Source of the DNA: Betaproteobacteria bacterium
GTDB lineage: Bacteria; Pseudomonadota; Gammaproteobacteria; Burkholderiales; Casimicrobiaceae
Assembly (NCBI GenBank): GCA_027307095.1
Contig: DAHUXO010000086.1
Span: forward strand, 1 to 36,474
Length of the DNA stretch: 36,474 nt
Direction: 5' to 3'
Shown: in pieces, positions 1 to 19,393 of the stretch
How the letters are laid out: the number at the start of each line of letters is the position of its first letter
Numbering within the stretch: the stretch's first letter is position 1
Made by a program: the position numbers and the translations under genes
The notes under the pieces: model-generated
The model's input: the letters and a program-made list of their open reading frames with translations, nothing else
The model's database searches: none
Told to the model about the DNA's origin: nothing

Positions 1-572
1 GGATTCTCGAGATCGCGGACATCCACGTCGTAAGCAAATGCGACAGGCCGGATGCGAACCGGACGATCGCCGACCTCAAGAACATGCTGGCGCTGGGCCT
101 GAAATCCGGGACGGACCACGTTTTGAAATCCGGGACGGACCACGTTTTCACGGCCGCACTTGCTGGCGACAGTCCAGTGGCGAAAACGTGGTCCGTCCCG
201 GATTTCGCCGAGAAAACGTGGTCCGTCCCGGATTTAGTGGTTCCGGATTTCCAGGCCGCCCCGAAGTCTTCGTGGCGGCCGCCGATCGTCGCGACGAGCT
301 CTCCGCGCGACGAAGGGATTGCGGAGCTGCTCGCCGCGATCGATCGCCACCGCGGGGCGATGGAGGCAAACGGCGAGATCGACGCGCGGCGATCGCTGAT
401 CGCCGAGCGCCGGATGCTGGCGGCCGGTGAACAGATCCTGCGCGAGCAGTTCGCGCGGCATCGCGACGGGAAGATCGCAGCGCTGCTGCACGACGTGAAA
501 GCACGCACGCTGTCGCCGCATTCGGCGGCGGAAGCCTTGTTGCGCGATTTGCATATCGGAGGTGAATCATGA
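1..572 (+). CDS. meaB: MeaB/ArgK-type GTPase (mutase chaperone), 3' part only, with an in-frame repeat insertion
   Basis: Frame from nt 3 is open to the TGA at 570-572 and reads ILEIADIHVVSKCDRPDANRTIADLKNMLAL ... WRPPIVATSSPRDEGIAELLAAIDRHRGAM, the NKxD/G4 and C-terminal region of MeaB-type G proteins. Next to a mutase gene. 5' end lies outside the window. Confidence 0.85.
   Translation, partial: ILEIADIHVVSKCDRPDANRTIADLKNMLALGLKSGTDHVLKSGTDHVFTAALAGDSPVAKTWSVPDFAEKTWSVPDLVVPDFQAAPKSSWRPPIVATSSPRDEGIAELLAAIDRHRGAMEANGEIDARRSLIAERRMLAAGEQILREQFARHRDGKIAALLHDVKARTLSPHSAAEALLRDLHIGGES
102..235. repeat. Palindromic REP-like repeat cluster: two direct 23-bp units followed by two inverted 23-bp units
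   Basis: aaatccgggacggaccacgtttt at 102-124 and 126-148; its exact reverse complement aaaacgtggtccgtcccggattt at 183-205 and 213-235. 125-149 and 182-206 form a perfect 25-bp inverted repeat. Confidence 0.97.
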
Positions 573-2281
573 ACGATCCGCTCGCCGACGCGTCCGCCGG
601 ACCGGAGCCGCAGATACGCGACGCCCTCGCGAAGCAGGTCGACGCCTGGGAGGGCGACGAAGTCGCGAAATTCGTCGCGCGTGCTCCCGAGCGTGCCCCC
701 GGGTTCGCGACGCTGGGTGGCTTTCCGGTCAAGCGCACCTACACGGCGCTCGACGTCGCCGACACGCCGCTCGCCGACATCGGACTCCCCGGCCAGTACC
801 CATTCACGCGCGGGCCCTACCCGACGATGTACCGCGGCCGGCTGTGGACGATGCGCCAGATCGCCGGCTTCGGCACCGCCGAGGACACGAACCAGCGCTT
901 CAAGTACCTGATCTCGCAGGGGCAGACCGGTCTGTCCACCGATTTCGACATGCCGACCCTGATGGGCTACGACAGCGACCATCCCATGAGCGAGGGCGAG
1001 GTCGGCCGCGAGGGCGTGGCCATCGACACGCTGGCCGACATGGAGCACCTGTTCGACGGCATCGACCTCACGAGGATCTCGGTGTCGATGACGATCAATC
1101 CGAGCGCCTGGATCCTGCTCGCGATGTACGTCGCGCTGGCGCAGAAGCGCGGGTACGACCTGAACCAGCTGTCGGGGACGATCCAGGCCGACATCCTGAA
1201 GGAGTACCAGGCGCAGAAGGAATGGGCGTTCCCGGTCGCGCCATCGGTGCGCATCGTGCGCGACTGCATCACCTACTGCGCCCGCAACATGAAGCGCTAC
1301 AACCCGATCAACATCTCGGGCTACCACATCTCCGAGGCAGGCGGCTCGCCGCTGGACGAGGTGGCGTTCACGATGTGCAACCTGATCACCTACGTCGAGG
1401 AGGTGCGGAAGACCGGCATGCACGTCGACGAGTTCGCGCCGCGGCTCGCGTTCTTCTACGTCTGCCAGGCCGACTTCTTCGAGGAGATCGCCAAGTTCCG
1501 CGCCGTTCGCCGCGTCTACGCCAAGGTCATGCGCGAGCGTTTCGGGGCGCAAAACCCCGAGTCGATGCGGTTGCGCTTCCACTGCCAGACCGCCGCGGCG
1601 TCGCTGACCAAGCCGCAGTACCAGATCAATGTCGTGCGCACCGGATTGCAGGCGCTCGCCGCCGTGCTGGGCGGCGCGCAGAGCCTGCACACCAACGGCA
1701 TGGACGAGGCGTTCGCGATCCCCACCGAGCAGGCGATGAAGATCGCGCTGCGCACGCAGCAGATCGTCGCCGACGAGAGCGGCGTGGCCAATGTCGTCGA
1801 CCCGCTGGGGGGCTCGTACTTCGTCGAGAGCCTGACGACGCAGTACGAGCGCGCGATCTTCGACGTGGTCGAGGAGGTCGACCGCAATGGCGGGACGATC
1901 AGGCTGACGCAGGAGGGGTGGTTCCAGCGCCGGATCGCCGACTTCGCCTACGAGACCGCGCTGAAGAAGGCCGATGGCGAGAAGGCGGTGATCGGCGTCA
2001 ACAAATACGTCGATCCCGAGGAGAAGTTCGACATCGAGCTCCATCCGTACGACACGTCGACGGCCGACCGGCAGATCGCGCGCCTCGCCCGTGTGCGGCG
2101 CGAGCGCGACAACACCAGGGTGAATGCGCTGCTCGAGCGCCTGGTCGAGGTCGCGAGGAACGAGAGCGAGAACATCATGCCGGTCACGATCGATCTCGTC
2201 GCCGCCGGCGCGACGATGGGCGACATCGTCGAGAAGCTCAAGATGCTGTGGGGAACCTATCGCGAGACGCCGGTGTTCTGA
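569..2281 (+). CDS. Acyl-CoA mutase large subunit, B12-dependent, without B12-binding domain (2-hydroxyisobutyryl-CoA mutase HcmA-like)
   Basis: 570 aa; methylmalonyl-CoA mutase family motifs RGPYPTMYRGRLWTMRQIAGFGTAEDTN, GYDSDHP, RFHCQTAAASLTKPQ; Ile in WTMRQI and Asp in STDFD replace the residues expected in methylmalonyl-CoA mutase. Confidence 0.9.
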   Translation: MNDPLADASAGPEPQIRDALAKQVDAWEGDEVAKFVARAPERAPGFATLGGFPVKRTYTALDVADTPLADIGLPGQYPFTRGPYPTMYRGRLWTMRQIAGFGTAEDTNQRFKYLISQGQTGLSTDFDMPTLMGYDSDHPMSEGEVGREGVAIDTLADMEHLFDGIDLTRISVSMTINPSAWILLAMYVALAQKRGYDLNQLSGTIQADILKEYQAQKEWAFPVAPSVRIVRDCITYCARNMKRYNPINISGYHISEAGGSPLDEVAFTMCNLITYVEEVRKTGMHVDEFAPRLAFFYVCQADFFEEIAKFRAVRRVYAKVMRERFGAQNPESMRLRFHCQTAAASLTKPQYQINVVRTGLQALAAVLGGAQSLHTNGMDEAFAIPTEQAMKIALRTQQIVADESGVANVVDPLGGSYFVESLTTQYERAIFDVVEEVDRNGGTIRLTQEGWFQRRIADFAYETALKKADGEKAVIGVNKYVDPEEKFDIELHPYDTSTADRQIARLARVRRERDNTRVNALLERLVEVARNESENIMPVTIDLVAAGATMGDIVEKLKMLWGTYRETPVF

Positions 2282-2294
2282 GCGGCGGCCCACG

Positions 2295-4010
2295 ATGAGC
2301 GCGTCTTGCAGCGTAGCCGAATGGGTCGCGCGCTTCATCGCGGCGCGCGGGCCCGCGCGCGTGTTCGGGCTGCAGGGCGGCCACATCCAGCCGATCTGGG
2401 ACGAGCTCGGGCGCGCGGGCGTGCCGATCGTCGACGTGCGCCACGAGGGGGCCGCCGTGCACATGGCGGCGGCGCACGCGCTGCTAGCGGGGGAGCCGGG
2501 CGTGGCTTTGGTCACCTCGGGCCCGGGCGTCACGAACTGCGTGACCTCGGTCGCCAATGCCGACCTCGAGCGCGCGCCGGTGCTGGTCATCGGCGGGTGC
2601 CCGCCTGCCCGCCAGGACCACATGGGCCCGCTGCAGGGAACCCCGCATGTCGACATCCTGCGCCCGGTCACGCGGCTCGCTCGCACGCTGCGCATTGCGG
2701 AGCACGTCGTCCGCGAGCTCGACGGCGCGCTCGCCTGCGCGCAGGGAGCGGCCGGTCTCCCGGGACCGGTGGACGTCGAGAGTCCCACCGACGTGCTGCG
2801 CACCAGGATCGCGGACGCGGCGGTGCTGCCCGAGCACCTGCTGCGTCGCCCGCCGGCGCGTTCGCTGCCCGATCCAGAAGCAATCGCATGCGCGGCAGAC
2901 CTGCTGCGAGGCGCGCGGCGACCGCTGGTGATCAGCGGCCGCGGTGCCGCCGGAGCCGGGGCGGCGCTGGTCGCGCTGCTCGATGCGAGTGGCGCCGTCT
3001 ACCTCGATACGCAGGAGTCGCGCGGCACCGTCCCCGCCGGCCATCCTTCCCACGTTGGCGCGATGCGCGGCGCGGCGATGCGCGATGCCGACCTGGTGCT
3101 GACGGTGGGCCGGAAGCTCGACTACCAGCTCGGTTACGGGTCACCGGCGGCATTTCCGAATGCGCGATTCGTGCGCATCGCGGCACACGCGGGCGAGCGC
3201 GGCGACAACCGGCCCGGGGCGGCTGCCATCGCGGGTGACGTCGCCCTGGCGCTGGCCGGGCTTGCCGCCGCGCTCGACGGGCGCCCGCCAGCGCTCGATC
3301 GCGACTGGTGCGAAGCGCTGCGCGCGCAGCACATCGAGCGCTCACGGCGGCATGTCGCGGCGCTTGCGCAGGCACCCGCTGGCGCCGACGGGCGCATGCA
3401 CCCGAACCGGATCTTCGCCGCGCTTTCCCGACTGCTGGGGGAAGATGCGATCGGCATCGCCGATGGCGGCGACATCCTGAGCTTTGCGCGTCTGTCGCTT
3501 GCGACGGGCAGCTATCTCGACGCGGGCGCGTTCGGTTGCCTGGGCGTCGGGGTTCCCTATGCCAACGCGGCGGCGCTGGCGTGTCCCGGTCGCCGCGTCG
3601 TGGCCGTCTGCGGTGACGGGGCGTTCGGCCTGCATGCGATGGAAATCGACACGGCGGCGCGCCATGGCTGCAAGGCGGTGTTCGTCATCGCCAACAATGC
3701 GGCCTGGAACATCGAGCGCGTGGATCAGGAACGCAACTACGGCGGCCGCGTGTCCGGAACGCTGCTGGGCGATTCGGACTACGCGGCGATGGCCCGCGCG
3801 TTCGGGCTGCACGCCGAGCGCATCGACGATCCGGCGGATCTCGAGCGTGCACTCGAGCGCGCATTCGAGCACGCGCCGGCACTCGTCGACGTCGCCGTCA
3901 CCCGCGACACCGTTTCCTCCGACCTCGAGAAGGGGCTGAGCATCGTCCCGGACTGGCAGCCGCTGACCGCGTGGGACAATGCCGAGCGCACGCGCTACCG
4001 CCGCGATTGA
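2295..4010 (+). CDS. ThDP-dependent 2-hydroxyacyl-CoA lyase / oxalyl-CoA decarboxylase family enzyme
   Basis: MSASCSVAEWVARF start at 2295 inside ORF 2124..4010; VRHEGAAVHMA (ThDP Glu), SGPGVTN, ThDP motif GDGAFGLHAMEIDTAARHGCKAVFVIANNAAWN; C-terminus SSDLEKGLSIVPDWQPLTAWDNAER. Confidence 0.85.
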   Translation: MSASCSVAEWVARFIAARGPARVFGLQGGHIQPIWDELGRAGVPIVDVRHEGAAVHMAAAHALLAGEPGVALVTSGPGVTNCVTSVANADLERAPVLVIGGCPPARQDHMGPLQGTPHVDILRPVTRLARTLRIAEHVVRELDGALACAQGAAGLPGPVDVESPTDVLRTRIADAAVLPEHLLRRPPARSLPDPEAIACAADLLRGARRPLVISGRGAAGAGAALVALLDASGAVYLDTQESRGTVPAGHPSHVGAMRGAAMRDADLVLTVGRKLDYQLGYGSPAAFPNARFVRIAAHAGERGDNRPGAAAIAGDVALALAGLAAALDGRPPALDRDWCEALRAQHIERSRRHVAALAQAPAGADGRMHPNRIFAALSRLLGEDAIGIADGGDILSFARLSLATGSYLDAGAFGCLGVGVPYANAAALACPGRRVVAVCGDGAFGLHAMEIDTAARHGCKAVFVIANNAAWNIERVDQERNYGGRVSGTLLGDSDYAAMARAFGLHAERIDDPADLERALERAFEHAPALVDVAVTRDTVSSDLEKGLSIVPDWQPLTAWDNAERTRYRRD

Positions 4011-4071: not shown

Positions 4072-5181
4072 ATGACGCAGGGACTGATCCTCGACTACCT
4101 ATGGCATTCGCCCGATGTCGGAGCCCGGGCCGAGGTGGTGGGGCAAGCCGCGATCATCGGCCGATCGGCGATCGGTCCGCGTCCGTCGCTTGCCGCCTAC
4201 GCGACGATCCGCGCCGACGGCGAATCGATCCGCATCGGCGCCGACGCCTGGTTCGGCGAGCACGCGACGGTGCATATCGCGGACAGCCTGCTCGGAGCGG
4301 TGATCGGCAACGGCGTCAGCGTGGCGTGCTACGGCCTGGTGCATGCGTGCGTGCTGGGAGACGATGTCGTCGACGGCGAATCGGCGGTCGTCATGGATGG
4401 CTCGAGCGTCGGTGCGGGTGCGCTGATCGCGGCCGACAGCGTCGTCCCGCCGCGCAAGGAGCTGCCTGGAGGATTCATATACGCCGGACATCCGGCGCAG
4501 CCGCTGCGTGCGATCGCGCCCGAGGAGCTCGCGGCGATCGCAGTGGCGCTGCGGGGCGGCGTCGTCGATCCGCTGCTGGCGGCTACGCGCCTGCCCGGCT
4601 GGACCGAGCTCGTATCGCGGCTTGCGGGCGGTCCCGGCCCGTTGCGCTCGCAGGATGGGCGGATGCCTGCGATCGCGCGCGCCTACGTCGCACCGACGTC
4701 GATCGTCGCCGGCGCGGTCGACGTCGCCGACGACTCGAGCGTGTTCTTCGGCTGCGCCGTTTCGGCGGGCGACGGACGGATCGTCATCGGGACGCGCAGC
4801 AATGTTCAGGACAATTCGATCCTCGCGACCGATCGCCGCCGCGGCGACCTCGTGCTCGGCGCGGGCGTCACGATCGGCCACAACGTCGAGATCGGTTCCG
4901 CGACGATCGGCGACGACGTGCTGATCGGCATGGGTGCGCGCCTGGGCGACGAAGTCGTCGTCGAGCCCGGTGCCTGCGTGGCGGCGGGAGCATGGGTCGA
5001 GCCGCGCAGCGTCGTGCCTGCGGGCTGGATCTGGGCCGGCCGGCCCGCACGCGCGTTTCGCGAGATCAGGGATTCCGAGCGGCGCGACTTCGCGCGCGCC
5101 GGGCAGATCTACGTCCGCTACGCGAGGGCGTACCGCGTCAATCCTGGCCGGGACCCACGGGCAGCGCGACCTGCACGTTGA
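4072..5181 (+). CDS. Tandem gamma-carbonic-anhydrase-like / PaaY-CaiE-like hexapeptide (left-handed beta-helix) protein
   Basis: Two consecutive hexapeptide-repeat domains (IRIGADAWFGEHATVHI...; IVIGTRSNVQDNSILAT...VTIGHNVEIGSATIGDDVLIGMGA...). Start could also be 3979. Confidence 0.8.
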   Translation: MTQGLILDYLWHSPDVGARAEVVGQAAIIGRSAIGPRPSLAAYATIRADGESIRIGADAWFGEHATVHIADSLLGAVIGNGVSVACYGLVHACVLGDDVVDGESAVVMDGSSVGAGALIAADSVVPPRKELPGGFIYAGHPAQPLRAIAPEELAAIAVALRGGVVDPLLAATRLPGWTELVSRLAGGPGPLRSQDGRMPAIARAYVAPTSIVAGAVDVADDSSVFFGCAVSAGDGRIVIGTRSNVQDNSILATDRRRGDLVLGAGVTIGHNVEIGSATIGDDVLIGMGARLGDEVVVEPGACVAAGAWVEPRSVVPAGWIWAGRPARAFREIRDSERRDFARAGQIYVRYARAYRVNPGRDPRAARPAR

Positions 5182-5842
5182 CCGCAGCGTGCTGCAGGTG
5201 GGCGCGCACCAGCGCCGCGGCGGCGTCGCCGTCGCGACCGGCGATCGCGCGCAGGATCTGCTCGTGCTCGAGCCAGATCGCCTTGCGGTAATCGCGGTGC
5301 TGCAGGACCTCGCGCATCGAGCGGCGCAGGTGGTTCCACAGCTCGTCCATCAGCTCGACGAACAGGCGATTGCGCGACAGCTCGTAGATGTACATGTGGA
5401 ACTGCATGTCGGCGGCGATCAGCTCGGCGATCGAGTTGTGGTGGATCGCCTGTTGTCCGGCGCGGATCATCCTCGCCCCGCGCGCGAGCTCCTCGGCGGT
5501 CGCATTGCGCGCGGCCAGCGTCGCGGCGAGCGGCTCGATCCCCAGCCGCAGCTCGTAGATCGACCGCATGAAGTCGCGATCGAGCGGCGCGACCATCAGC
5601 CCGCGGCGGCCCGCCTCGGCGACGAACTTCTGCTGCTTGAGGAGCAACAGCGCCTGGCCCACCGGCTGACGCGACACCGAGAGCTTCTTCGCGACCGTTT
5701 CCTGGGTGAGGCGCTCACCCGGCTCCAGGCGGCCGTCGCAGATCGCGTCGAGGATCGCCTTGTAGACCTGTTCGACGATCGTCGGCGCCTGCTGGAGCGA
5801 TTCGATCGCCGCCATCGATGCGGTGCGCGCCTGGGGATTCAT
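5138..5842 (-). CDS. GntR family transcriptional regulator, FCD domain
   Basis: N-terminal wHTH IVEQVYKAILDAICDGRLEPGERLTQETVAKKLSVSRQPVGQALLLLKQQKFV followed by FCD-type helical domain; ATG (MNPQART) at 5842. Tail-to-tail overlap with the gamma-CA gene. Confidence 0.88.
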   Translation of the reverse strand: MNPQARTASMAAIESLQQAPTIVEQVYKAILDAICDGRLEPGERLTQETVAKKLSVSRQPVGQALLLLKQQKFVAEAGRRGLMVAPLDRDFMRSIYELRLGIEPLAATLAARNATAEELARGARMIRAGQQAIHHNSIAELIAADMQFHMYIYELSRNRLFVELMDELWNHLRRSMREVLQHRDYRKAIWLEHEQILRAIAGRDGDAAAALVRAHLQHAAVNVQVALPVGPGQD

Positions 5843-5870
5843 CCGCGCGATGATACCCGCGAGGCGACAC

Positions 5871-6660
5871 TCATCGCGGCGCCCGACGGAAACGGACGTC
5901 GCCGTACCAGGCTTCGGCATGGCCGCCGGTATTGTCGGTGTCGGTGAAGACCCCGACCGCGCGAAGCCTGCCCGGCTGCTCGCCGAACGCGCGGCGGAAA
6001 TCCGCGACGACGTCGCGGGACAGGGATTGCCACGTCCCCACGCCCCGGCTGCCGCTCGAGGCGACGACCATCTGCACGCGGCGCGTGCGCGGGCTCGCGA
6101 TCACGGTGCCGACCGGCTCGCGGTTGGCCCAGAAATAGATCAGCGTCGCATACGGCAGCTCCCGGCCGGCGATGCGTTGCGACAGCTCGTAGATGCCGCG
6201 CTGGAGCAGCGGGAGCTTCGACTTGTCGCCGTCGAACTCGAGCACCAGGCGCGCCGGAGAGTCCTCGCGCGCGGCGAGTCTCGGGTCGGCATCGGCGATC
6301 AGCGCTGCGACTTTCCACCGCCACTCGACGATGGGCGTGGCCCGGAGATCGATGTCGGTGGCGACCGCAAGCACGCTCGCCGCGTTGTCGGCATCCGCAT
6401 GCAGCACGACGGTCCCTGCGTCGTCGACCAGGTCGTATTGCGTCGGTCGCTTGCGGCGCGAAAGCGAGACTGGTTCCCAGGGTGCGGTTGACCCGCCCGC
6501 GACCATGCCCGAGAAGGCGGCGATGGCCGCCCCCGGCGCGGAGTCCGGCGCCGCCAGTGCGCCGGACGCGAGCAGCGAGCAACAGGCGGCGGCGCAGGCC
6601 CGTGACCACGCGCGCGGGCGCGTCCTGCGCGACGCCGCGACGCGTCCGGTGACGCCGAGC
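5871..6660 (-). CDS. DUF3047-type secreted protein (start uncertain)
   Basis: VEWRWKV...[13 protein letters not shown]...[16 protein letters not shown]...[22 protein letters not shown] is characteristic; Ala-rich signal-like stretch upstream. Start codon not resolved. Confidence 0.7.
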
Positions 6661-16017: not shown

Positions 16018-16056
16018 ATCCCCCACCCCTCGCTCAGAGCAGTGCCCGCGCCGTCC

Positions 16057-16071
16057 CGCCCCCGGGGCGGT
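16057..16071 (+). terminator. Candidate attenuator hairpin between leader peptide and leuA (approximate position)
   Basis: ccgcccc/ggggcgg inverted repeat in 'cccgcccccggggcggtcatcatcg'; very small loop and no uninterrupted U-tract. Confidence 0.35.
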
Positions 16072-16095
16072 CATCATCGTTCATCGTCGACGGGA

Positions 16096-17823
16096 ATGAC
16101 CATGCTGTCCGCACCCTCGCAGAAATACCGGCCGTTCCGGCCGGTCGACCTCCCTGACCGTGCCTGGCCGTCGCGCACCATCACCCGGCCGCCCGTGTGG
16201 CTGTCCACCGACCTGCGCGACGGCAATCAGGCGCTGGTCGAGCCCATGGATGCCGGGCGCAAGCTCCGGATGTTCCGCCAGCTCGTCGCCATCGGCTTCA
16301 AGGAGATCGAGGTCGCGTTCCCGTCCGCGTCGCAGACCGACTTCGATTTCGTGCGGCAGCTGATCGAAGAGAAACTGATCCCCGACGACGTGACGATCCA
16401 GGTGCTGACCCAGTCGCGCGAGGAGCTCATTCGCAGGACATTCGAATCGCTGCGCGGGGCGAAGCGCGCGATCGTCCACCTCTACAATCCGACGGCTCCG
16501 CTGTTCAGGCGTGTCGTCTACGGCAAGGACCGCCCGGGCATCGTCGACATCGCCGTCGACGGTGCACGCCTCTTCCGCGAGTGCGCGCACTCGCAGCCCG
16601 CGACGGACTGGCGCTTCGAATACTCACCCGAGACGTTCACGATGACCGAGCTGGACTTCGCCCTCGAGATCTGCGAGCGCGTCGTCGACGTCTGGGAGTC
16701 CGCCACGCTCCACCCGGTGATCCTGAACCTGCCGGCGACGGTCGAGGTAGCCACGCCCAACGTGTTCGCCGACCAGATCGAATGGATGCACCGCCACCTG
16801 AGTCGGCGTGACCGGGTGATCGTCTCGGTCCATCCGCACAACGATCGCGGCACCGGCGTCGCGGCCGCCGAGCTCGCCGTCATGGCGGGTGCCGACCGGG
16901 TCGAAGGCTGCCTGTTCGGCAACGGCGAGCGCACCGGCAACGTCTGTCTGGTGACGCTCGCGATGAATCTCCATTCGCAGGGCGTGGATCCCGGCCTCGA
17001 TTTCAGCGACATCGGCGCGGTCATCAGGACCGCCGAGTACTGTACGGCGCTCCCGGTCCATCCGCGCCACCCCTACGCAGGCGAACTCGTGTTCACGGCG
17101 TTTTCCGGCTCGCACCAGGACGCGATCAAGAAGGGCTTCGCCGCGCAGCGCGCCGAGGAAGCCGCAGGCAACGCGTTCTGGGACGTGCCCTATCTGCCGA
17201 TCGACCCCGCCGATGTCGGCCGCACCTACGACGCGGTCATCCGGGTCAACAGCCAGTCCGGCAAGGGCGGCATCGCGTACCTGCTCGAGCGCGACCACGG
17301 GCTCGCGCTGCCGCGCTTGCTGCAGATCGAGTTCAGCCGCGTCGTGCAGGCGATCACCGACGCGACGGGCCGGGAACTGACGACGGACGACCTCCACGCG
17401 GCGTTCGTGCGCGAGTACGTCGCGCCCGATGCCCCGATCGCCTACGTCGACCACCGGACGACCCATCCGGGCGGCCCGTCCGCGCCGGAGCAGCTGACCG
17501 CACGCCTCCTGATCGACGGCGTCGAAACGGTGCTCGGGGGCGCCGGCAACGGCCCCGTCGACGCCTTCGTCCACGCATTGCGCGACCGCGTGGGTGCCGA
17601 CGTGCACGTGAGTGCGTATCACGAGCACGCGATCGGCACCGGCGAGGATGCGATGGCGGTGGCGTATGTGCAGTTGCGCGTCGGCCAGTGCGGCATCTAC
17701 GGCGTCGGCCTCGATCCGAACATCGTCACGGCGACGCTGAAGGCCATCGTCGCTGCGGTCGACCGCGGATCTGCGCAGCGGCATCTGGCGCTTAGGGCAC
17801 AGCCCGGAGCTGCGGCAGCATGA
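16096..17823 (+). CDS. leuA: 2-isopropylmalate synthase, long form
   Basis: [43 protein letters not shown]...; [10 protein letters not shown]-terminal regulatory domain. Confidence 0.93.
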
Positions 17824-17851: not shown

Positions 17852-19393
17852 ATGTCCGATCATCTGATCATTTTCGACACGACGTTGCGCGACGGCGAGC
17901 AGAGCCCGGGTGCCTCGATGACCAGGGAAGAGAAGACGCGAATCGCGCGCCAGCTCGAGCGGCTGCGTGTCGACGTCATCGAGGCGGGGTTTCCGGCGTC
18001 GTCGAACGGTGATTTCGAGGCGGTGCAGGACATCGCGAGGGCGATCCACGACAGCACGGTCTGCGGACTGGCGCGCGCCAACGAGAACGACGTCCGCCGC
18101 GCCGGCGAGGCGCTGAAGCCCGCGAAGTCGATGCGCATCCACACGTTCATCGCCAGCTCGCCGATCCACATGCAGATGAAGCTGCGGATGACGCCCGAGC
18201 AGGTGCTCGAGCAGGCGGTCAAGGCGGTCGGGTGGGCACGCCGATACACCGACAACGTCGAGTTCTCGCCGGAGGACGCGGGGCGGTCGGAACCCGACTT
18301 CCTGTGCAGGCTGCTGGAGGCGACCATCGCCGCAGGCGCGACGACCGTCAACATTCCCGACACGGTCGGCTACACGATGCCCTGGCAGTTCGGTGCGCTG
18401 ATCAAGTCGTTGCGCGAGCGCGTGCCCAACTCCGACAAAGCGGTGTGGTCGGTGCACTGCCACAACGACCTCGGCGTCGCCGTGGCCAATTCGCTCGCGG
18501 CGGTCATGAACGGCGCGCGCCAGGTCGAATGCACGGTGAACGGCCTGGGCGAGCGCGCCGGAAATGCCTCGCTCGAGGAGATCGTGATGGCGGTGCGCAC
18601 GCGCAAGGACGTGTTTCCCTGCGCGACGCGCATCGACACGACGCAGATCGTCGCGGCTTCGAAGCTGGTGTCGGGGATCACGGGCTTCCCGGTGCAGCCG
18701 AACAAGGCGATCGTCGGCGCCAACGCATTCGCGCACGAGTCCGGCATCCACCAGGACGGCGTGCTCAAGCATCGCGAGACCTACGAGATCATGCGCGCGG
18801 AAGACGTGGGCTGGGGCGCGAACAAGCTCGTCCTGGGCAAGCTCTCCGGCCGCAACGCGTTCAAGACGCGGTTGACCGAACTGGGAATCGACCTGCCCAG
18901 CGATGACGCGGTCAACGTCGCATTCGCGCGATTCAAGGAGCTCGCCGACAAGAAGGGCGAGGTGTTCGACGAGGATCTCCACGCGCTGGTGTCCGAAGAG
19001 GGCATCGTCCCTGCGCACGAGTACTACAGGCTTGCCGCGCTCAAGGTGACCTCGGAAACCGGAACGGTGCCGCATGCGCGCGTCATGATGAACGTCGGCG
19101 ACACCGAGGTCGTCGCCGAGATCGACGGCGACGGCCCGGTGGACGCCGTGTTCAAGGCGATCGAGCGCATGGCGGGATCGAACGCCAGCCTGCTGCTCTA
19201 TTCGGTCAACGCGATCACCGGCGGCACCGATGCGCAGGGCGAGGTGACGGTGCGCCTCGAGCGCGACGGGCGGATCGTCAACGGCAACGGTGCCGACACC
19301 GACATCATCGTCGCTTCGGCCAAGGCGTACATCAACGCGCTCAATCGACTGCACGCCAAGGTCGTGCGCTTGAATCCCCAACTCGCCGCGTAG
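17852..19393 (+). CDS. leuA: 2-isopropylmalate synthase, canonical ~513-aa form
   Basis: [75 protein letters not shown]. Confidence 0.96.

Follow-up and report, generated by a model that had tools for sequence, protein, structure and literature searches.

The window, the stretch of 36,474 nucleotides analyzed in this study, is a single contig of a 2.96 Mb draft genome that apparently belongs to a betaproteobacterium, its closest named relatives being Burkholderiales and Betaproteobacteria metagenome-assembled genomes. The genes at its beginning, together with the domains and site codons of a gene for a two-domain protein similar to gamma-carbonic anhydrases (gammaCAs), are as follows, with the numbering of Cam in brackets.

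3..572, + strand: MeaB-type GTPase, C-terminal part, cut by the contig end (the full-length homologue at locus L060 passes the MeaB cut-off)
569..2281, + strand: large subunit of a B12-dependent acyl-CoA mutase with the 2-hydroxyisobutyryl-CoA mutase signature (TIGR00641, 665.7 bits; Ile98, Asp125)
2295..4010, + strand: thiamine-diphosphate-dependent 2-hydroxyacyl-CoA lyase, HACL (NF058623, 888 bits against a cut-off of 600)
4072..5181, + strand: two-domain gammaCA-like protein, 369 aa (ORF, profile and structure matches)
4072..4560, + strand: N-terminal gammaCA domain, approximately residues 1-163 (residue retention, tree changes)
4273..4275, + strand: codon of His68 (Cam His81), invariant in 40/40
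4327-4329, + strand: codon of residue 86, the N-domain His117 position, Cys86 here (alignment)
4342..4344, + strand: codon of His91 (Cam His122), invariant in 40/40
4654..5139, + strand: C-terminal gammaCA domain, approximately residues 195-356 (residue retention, tree changes)
4879..4881, + strand: codon of His270 (Cam His117), invariant in 40/40
5138..5920, - strand: GntR/FCD transcriptional regulator, convergent (PF00392, PF07729)

The open reading frame of the two-domain protein, its coordinates and both sets of motifs were all found as described in the original prediction for this DNA. The start at 4072 is common to close homologues, which begin with MTQGLILDY or MTRGLILNY. In the N-domain, the motif ATVHI contains His68 (His81), VACYG contains Cys86 at the His117 position and LVHAC contains His91 (His122); in the C-domain, ILAT contains Ala252 at the His81 position, TIGHN contains His270 (His117) and EIGSA contains Gly275 at the His122 position. 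The N-domain also retains Arg47 (Arg59) and Asp49 (Asp61), plus Asp109 and Lys129, and has no His117, Asn73 or Gln75. The C-domain retains, besides His270, Asn244 (Asn73), Gln246 (Gln75), Asp247 (Asp76) and Tyr347 (the helix Tyr), and has no His81 or His122. The 3' ends of this gene and of the GntR/FCD gene share 44 bases (5138-5181).

Both a PF00132 match and the fold predicted by AlphaFold2 supported a left-handed parallel beta-helix of hexapeptide repeats. Solved gammaCAs match residues 198-356 best, and some plant and alga subunits also match residues 13-157. The NCBIfam profile NF050158 (gamma carbonic anhydrase equivalog) scored 175.2 bits over two stretches, below its cut-off of 250 bits, and therefore the two-domain protein should not be called an ordinary gammaCA equivalog; the single-domain relatives in the group likewise scored below this cut-off. 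The score for the PaaY equivalog TIGR02287 was 100.6 bits, short of the cut-off of 319.6.

Structure prediction of the monomer, suggested earlier as a check on the idea, gave a single confident arrangement of both domains when 40 homologues were supplied to AlphaFold2 as input (pLDDT 94.5, pTM 0.92). Since the two domains are of equal size, a pTM of this height means a confident prediction of how they are placed relative to each other. Both domains, taken singly, superpose on gammaCA chains (Foldseek, TM-score to target up to 0.94), and a second family member, 41% identical, was modeled equally well (pTM 0.92, pLDDT 94.7).

In order to compare the site residues across the family, an alignment of 40 two-domain proteins was used, consisting of 14 homologues in related genomes and of loci from a scan of species genomes. 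The homologues come from Alpha-, Beta- and Gammaproteobacteria and are 36-78% identical; a few source titles (Klebsiella, Bordetella, Vicinamibacteria) are labels of metagenome-assembled genomes and probably misassigned. His68, His91, His270, Asn244, Gln246 and Asp247 were each present in 40/40 proteins, and Arg47 and Asp49 in 39/39, one truncated sequence being without the Arg59/Asp61 region, and positions 86, 252 and 275 were variable. All three zinc-binding histidines of gammaCAs are thus present and invariant, but they are spread over different domains, and Asn73, Gln75, Arg59 and the helix Tyr around the metal site are likewise present as a composite of the two. The complementary loss of metal-binding histidines, proposed from the single protein, was borne out, with the lost partners varying across the family. 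Because the three histidines are invariant while positions 86, 252 and 275 vary, the pattern, as judged by conservation, is real and not due to chance, and it is stronger than had been claimed, since the division reaches beyond the histidines to Arg59, Asp61, Asn73, Gln75, Asp76 and the Tyr of the C-terminal helix.

Among 44 single-domain gammaCAs, including E. coli YrdA, PaaY and CaiE, the key site positions are 95-100% conserved, which indicates that the ancestor had the full set within one domain. In the two-domain proteins, Arg59, Asp61, His81 and His122 are each kept at a frequency of 1.00 in the N-domain and at 0.23, 0.10, 0.10 and 0.10, respectively, in the C-domain. Conversely, Asn73, Gln75, Asp76, His117 and the helix Tyr are each kept at 1.00 in the C-domain and at 0.00, 0.00, 0.26, 0.05 and 0.00 in the N-domain, the comparison being loosest for the Tyr, as the N-domain helix is short and the alignment there approximate. 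Asp109 and Lys129 of the N-domain obey the same division less strictly, since their conservation in single-domain gammaCAs is only 0.82-0.84.

Changes were counted on a tree built without the histidine columns. No change was found at any retained position, and 4 to 15 changes were found at the twin positions in the other domain (13 at C-81, 6 at C-122, 4 at N-117, 15 at C-59, 10 at C-61, 9 at N-73, 5 at N-75 and 8 at N-76). Homologues of the same layout that failed to conserve the retained histidines had been named as evidence that would speak against the idea; the three are kept in 40/40, with 0 changes versus 4, 13 and 6 at their twins. A complete histidine set is still found in the C-domain at L059, L060, L062 and L070, and a His at N-117 completes the N-domain set at L049 and L050. 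The exceptions at L059, L060, L062, L049 and L050 indicate that redundant histidines are free to come and go and that the composite three are not. Members with a complete histidine set in one domain can be regarded as intermediate forms in the division of the site.

The N-domain 117 position is occupied by Arg in 34/40 proteins, by His in two and by Thr, Ala and Ser in one each; Cys is private to the window genome. Consequently, the Cys noted in the original prediction is present in the window but is not a family feature, and a His2Cys zinc site in the N-domain was rejected as a feature of the family. The observation and its central idea are supported by the conservation data, and the specific Cys appears incidental. 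The Arg is well conserved where canonical enzymes have His117, which suggests a role for which the composite-site model described below does not account.

GammaCAs are textbook homotrimers with active sites located between subunits. In canonical gammaCAs one subunit contributes two of the histidines and its neighbor the third (PMC12648627, PMC7447434). In the 2 A structure of plant complex I, the CA1/CA2 site consists of His107, His135 and Asp153 of CA2 and His130 of CA1, and at the CAL2/CA2 interface His130, Gln101 and Tyr207 of CA2 lie opposite His124 and Arg152 of CAL2, and a crotonyl- or butyryl-CoA occupies the space between the two subunits (PMC9873573). The assignment of His81 and His122 to one subunit and of His117 to its neighbor, on which the original prediction relied, agrees with these structures (PMC9873573, PMC12648627). 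When mapped by spacing, the plant residues correspond to positions 68, 91 and 109 of the N-domain and to positions 270, 246 and 347 of the C-domain. The residues assigned in the literature to one side of the interface are all kept in the N-domain, and those assigned to the other side are all kept in the C-domain. The geometry of the beta-helix fits this division for the sides of Arg59, Asp61, Asn73 and Asp76, as does the contact between Arg59 and Asp76 across the subunit interface. The sides of these four residues, which rest on that geometry and on the retention pattern, should be taken as a lead.

These results make it quite probable that the protein is a single-chain gammaCA in which two domains share out one composite zinc site. 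One side of the site (His81, His122, Arg59 and Asp61) would come from the N-domain, and the opposite side (His117, Gln75, Asn73, Asp76 and the helix Tyr) from the C-domain. The two domains would meet side by side like two gammaCA subunits, in a two-domain monomer or in a mixed ring, and each N:C contact would bind metal in a single full site for zinc (or iron) that holds an activated water, the two remaining kinds of contact having presumably decayed. As read from sequence comparison, the evolutionary evidence for such a split site is unusually clear. The proposal that a fused pseudo-heteromer could rebuild one type of interface is supported by the retention in 40/40, by the absence of changes on the tree and by a division that matches the known two-subunit site.

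Comparison with known gammaCAs showed both likenesses and differences. CamH-type gammaCAs (Pyrococcus Cap, plant CA1/CA2) have the same left-handed beta-helix, the three histidines and Asn73, Gln75 and the helix Tyr, but are single-domain trimers with sites between subunits, whereas here one set is distributed over two domains of one chain. The plant complex I gammaCA (CA1, CA2, CAL2) also has unequal subunits with all three histidines at one interface only (PMC7447434, PMC7567890, PMC9873573), and its degenerate interface binds C4 acyl-CoA (PMC9873573). It differs in that it consists of three separate chains bound to complex I, and the losses in its CAL subunit are not divided by interface side.

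The two-domain form was recognized in only two of the 369 genomes of the class sample, including the window genome, and is rare in the class. The N-domains formed one supported clade in the tree and so did the C-domains, as would be expected if the fusion arose once. The two clades were not sisters in the free tree, but a tree grouping N- and C-domains together was not rejected (p-AU 0.40), and both the fusion of two paralogues and a tandem duplication are compatible with the tree. Neither a fused or tandem gammaCA nor a gammaCA tied to a 2-hydroxyisobutyryl-CoA mutase in this architecture was described in the literature searched, most of which lay outside subscription journals. The architecture is new, and the family, gammaCA, is already known.

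The mutase, HACL and MeaB genes confirm that the gene lies in an acyl-CoA locus, as had been supposed. The window mutase has Ile98 and Asp125, 27 residues apart as expected, at the places of Ile90 and Asp117 of HcmA, which we take to be the signature of a 2-hydroxyisobutyryl-CoA mutase; the motif RQIAGFGT occurs in the HcmA-type mutase genes of the family. An HcmA-type mutase gene was found in 22/38 related loci, typically with genes for a B12 subunit, a CoA ligase and MeaB, in the recurrent order B12 subunit, PaaK-like CoA ligase, MeaB, mutase and two-domain gene, and in many loci the two-domain gene lies directly 3' of the mutase gene. The genes for the small B12 subunit and the CoA ligase are present in related loci such as L060; the window contig starts inside the MeaB gene. 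HACL, found in 9/38 loci, was rejected as the main partner, the mutase being the steadier neighbor.

No HcmA-type mutase was found in 11/38 loci within the flanking DNA covered, and genome G153, where the mutase gene is cut by the contig end, is only apparently mutase-free. Four of the six class-sample genomes that have an HcmA-type mutase have no two-domain gene. Both these four genomes and the 11 loci indicate that the two-domain protein is an accessory rather than a universal partner, and the link between its gene and the mutase pathway is partial. Other contexts, seen at L043, L044, L049, L051 and L061 and at L045, L054 and L068, contain a tartrate dehydrogenase-like gene, a fused FAD oxidase/GcvT-type gene or a PaaK-like CoA ligase gene. 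Elsewhere in the window, two types of 2-isopropylmalate synthase gene follow each other (16042-17823, leuA_yeast/PRK03739 type, and 17852-19393, leuA_bact type), with acetolactate synthase and ketol-acid reductoisomerase genes upstream of them.

As to function, the likeliest reading, held with some reserve, is that the protein is a PaaY-like hydrolase of acyl-CoA thioesters that would act in the 2-hydroxyisobutyryl-CoA mutase/lyase pathway and release CoA from formyl-CoA or from a small acyl-CoA that is branched or hydroxylated. The thioesterase activity suggested in the original prediction is plausible. PaaY and TrlF are zinc thioesterases of the gammaCA fold that recover CoA trapped in dead-end esters, probably by means of a hydroxide bound to zinc (PMC11110157). 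This chemistry, together with the C4 acyl-CoA in the plant site, makes CoA rescue or formyl-CoA hydrolysis the first choice. PaaY and TrlF share with the two-domain protein both the fold and acyl-CoA pathway neighbors, and the zinc-bound water mechanism is theirs (PMC11110157); however, they are single-domain homotrimers, and the two-domain gene does not lie in a paa cluster.

Clusters for 2-hydroxyisobutyryl-CoA mutase and HACL, known from the degradation of acetone and 2-hydroxyisobutyric acid, contain an Ile90/Asp117 mutase, HACL, MeaB and a GntR regulator as in the window (PMC7176365, PMC7888143), and no two-domain gammaCA was described in such clusters in the literature compared. An acetone-induced protein of Desulfotomaculum arcticum that lies in an equivalent cluster is annotated as carbonic anhydrase/acetyltransferase and, although likened here by annotation only, independently links the gammaCA family to the pathway (PMC8084838).

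It is possible, if somewhat doubtful, that the composite site is real and that the enzyme acts as a carbonic anhydrase which helps to balance CO2 and bicarbonate near the pathway. The full CamH-type set of three histidines, Asn73, Gln75 and Tyr is present across the two domains, and the proposed proton-shuttle place, three residues after His81, is Asp or His in 39/39 homologues compared; in the Vibrio gammaCA this place is His68 (PMC7822066). However, the window genome already encodes two single-domain gammaCAs, no adjoining CO2- or bicarbonate-using enzyme was recognized, and for many CamH proteins the activity is low or absent (PMC7447434).

A non-catalytic role beside the mutase/lyase system, in which the protein would be an accessory, either a scaffold or an acyl-CoA sensor whose composite pocket holds CoA esters, is unlikely. 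The cyanobacterial scaffold CcmM provides a precedent in its gammaCA-like domain without activity motifs (PMC8580825), and the position of the two-domain gene directly after the mutase gene in many loci would suit such a role, but a scaffold would not require that the entire set of metal-site and water-activating residues be strictly conserved, and some lineages have the gene without a nearby mutase.

For the single-chain enzyme with a composite site, the assembly is constrained by the number of domains. If every contact is to be N:C, chains of two domains cannot close into a symmetric three-domain ring, and therefore the assembly must be open, asymmetric or mixed; since neither domain alone has the full set, three equal canonical sites are not expected. 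The chain could stand as an open two-domain unit, could enter mixed rings of the NNC and NCC types in which the chains are not equivalent, or could share a ring with another gammaCA that closes it.

Alternatively, although this is distinctly unlikely, the N-domains and C-domains might form two homotrimeric rings stacked on a common threefold axis, with no full zinc site in either ring and with the half-sets kept for another role, such as metal-free acyl-CoA binding or structure. Stacking is the sole closed, symmetric assembly possible for a two-domain chain; the high pTM is also compatible with it, the Arg at N-117 is well conserved, and the metal-free plant gammaCA interface binds crotonyl- or butyryl-CoA via two histidines, a Gln and a Tyr (PMC9873573). 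However, stacking gives no reason why each domain should keep exactly one subunit's half of the site without any change on the tree, or why Arg47 and Asp247 should both be invariant, though many homologues have lost the acidic residue that corresponds to Asp76 in the N-domain.

A ring completed by a separate single-domain gammaCA of the same cell, similar to the mixed plant trimer, is improbable, for although it would solve the ring-parity problem and most carriers, the window genome included, encode single-domain gammaCAs, no such gene was seen in the cluster, and in genome G054, which is 97% complete, the two-domain gene is accompanied by no further gammaCA at E <= 1e-12, so that a separate third gammaCA is not needed there.

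Taken as a whole, a single-chain enzyme with exactly one composite zinc site at the intramolecular N:C interface, forming an open two-thirds ring and hydrolyzing a thioester of the 2-hydroxyisobutyryl-CoA/formyl-CoA pathway, is put forward only tentatively. Monomeric dUTPases offer a working analogy only, as their fold is unrelated: a trimeric enzyme with inter-subunit sites became a single chain by duplication and tandem fusion (PMC9927489).

If the composite-site reading is true, the two-domain protein would be an example from nature of how the active site of an oligomer is rearranged inside one chain, position by position and without redundancy. As an asymmetric scaffold, it would allow mutations on one side of the site without altering the other. 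To our knowledge, the fate of formyl-CoA and of misformed CoA esters in the 2-hydroxyisobutyryl-CoA/acetone pathway is poorly described, and the two-domain protein would add a further enzyme to this pathway.
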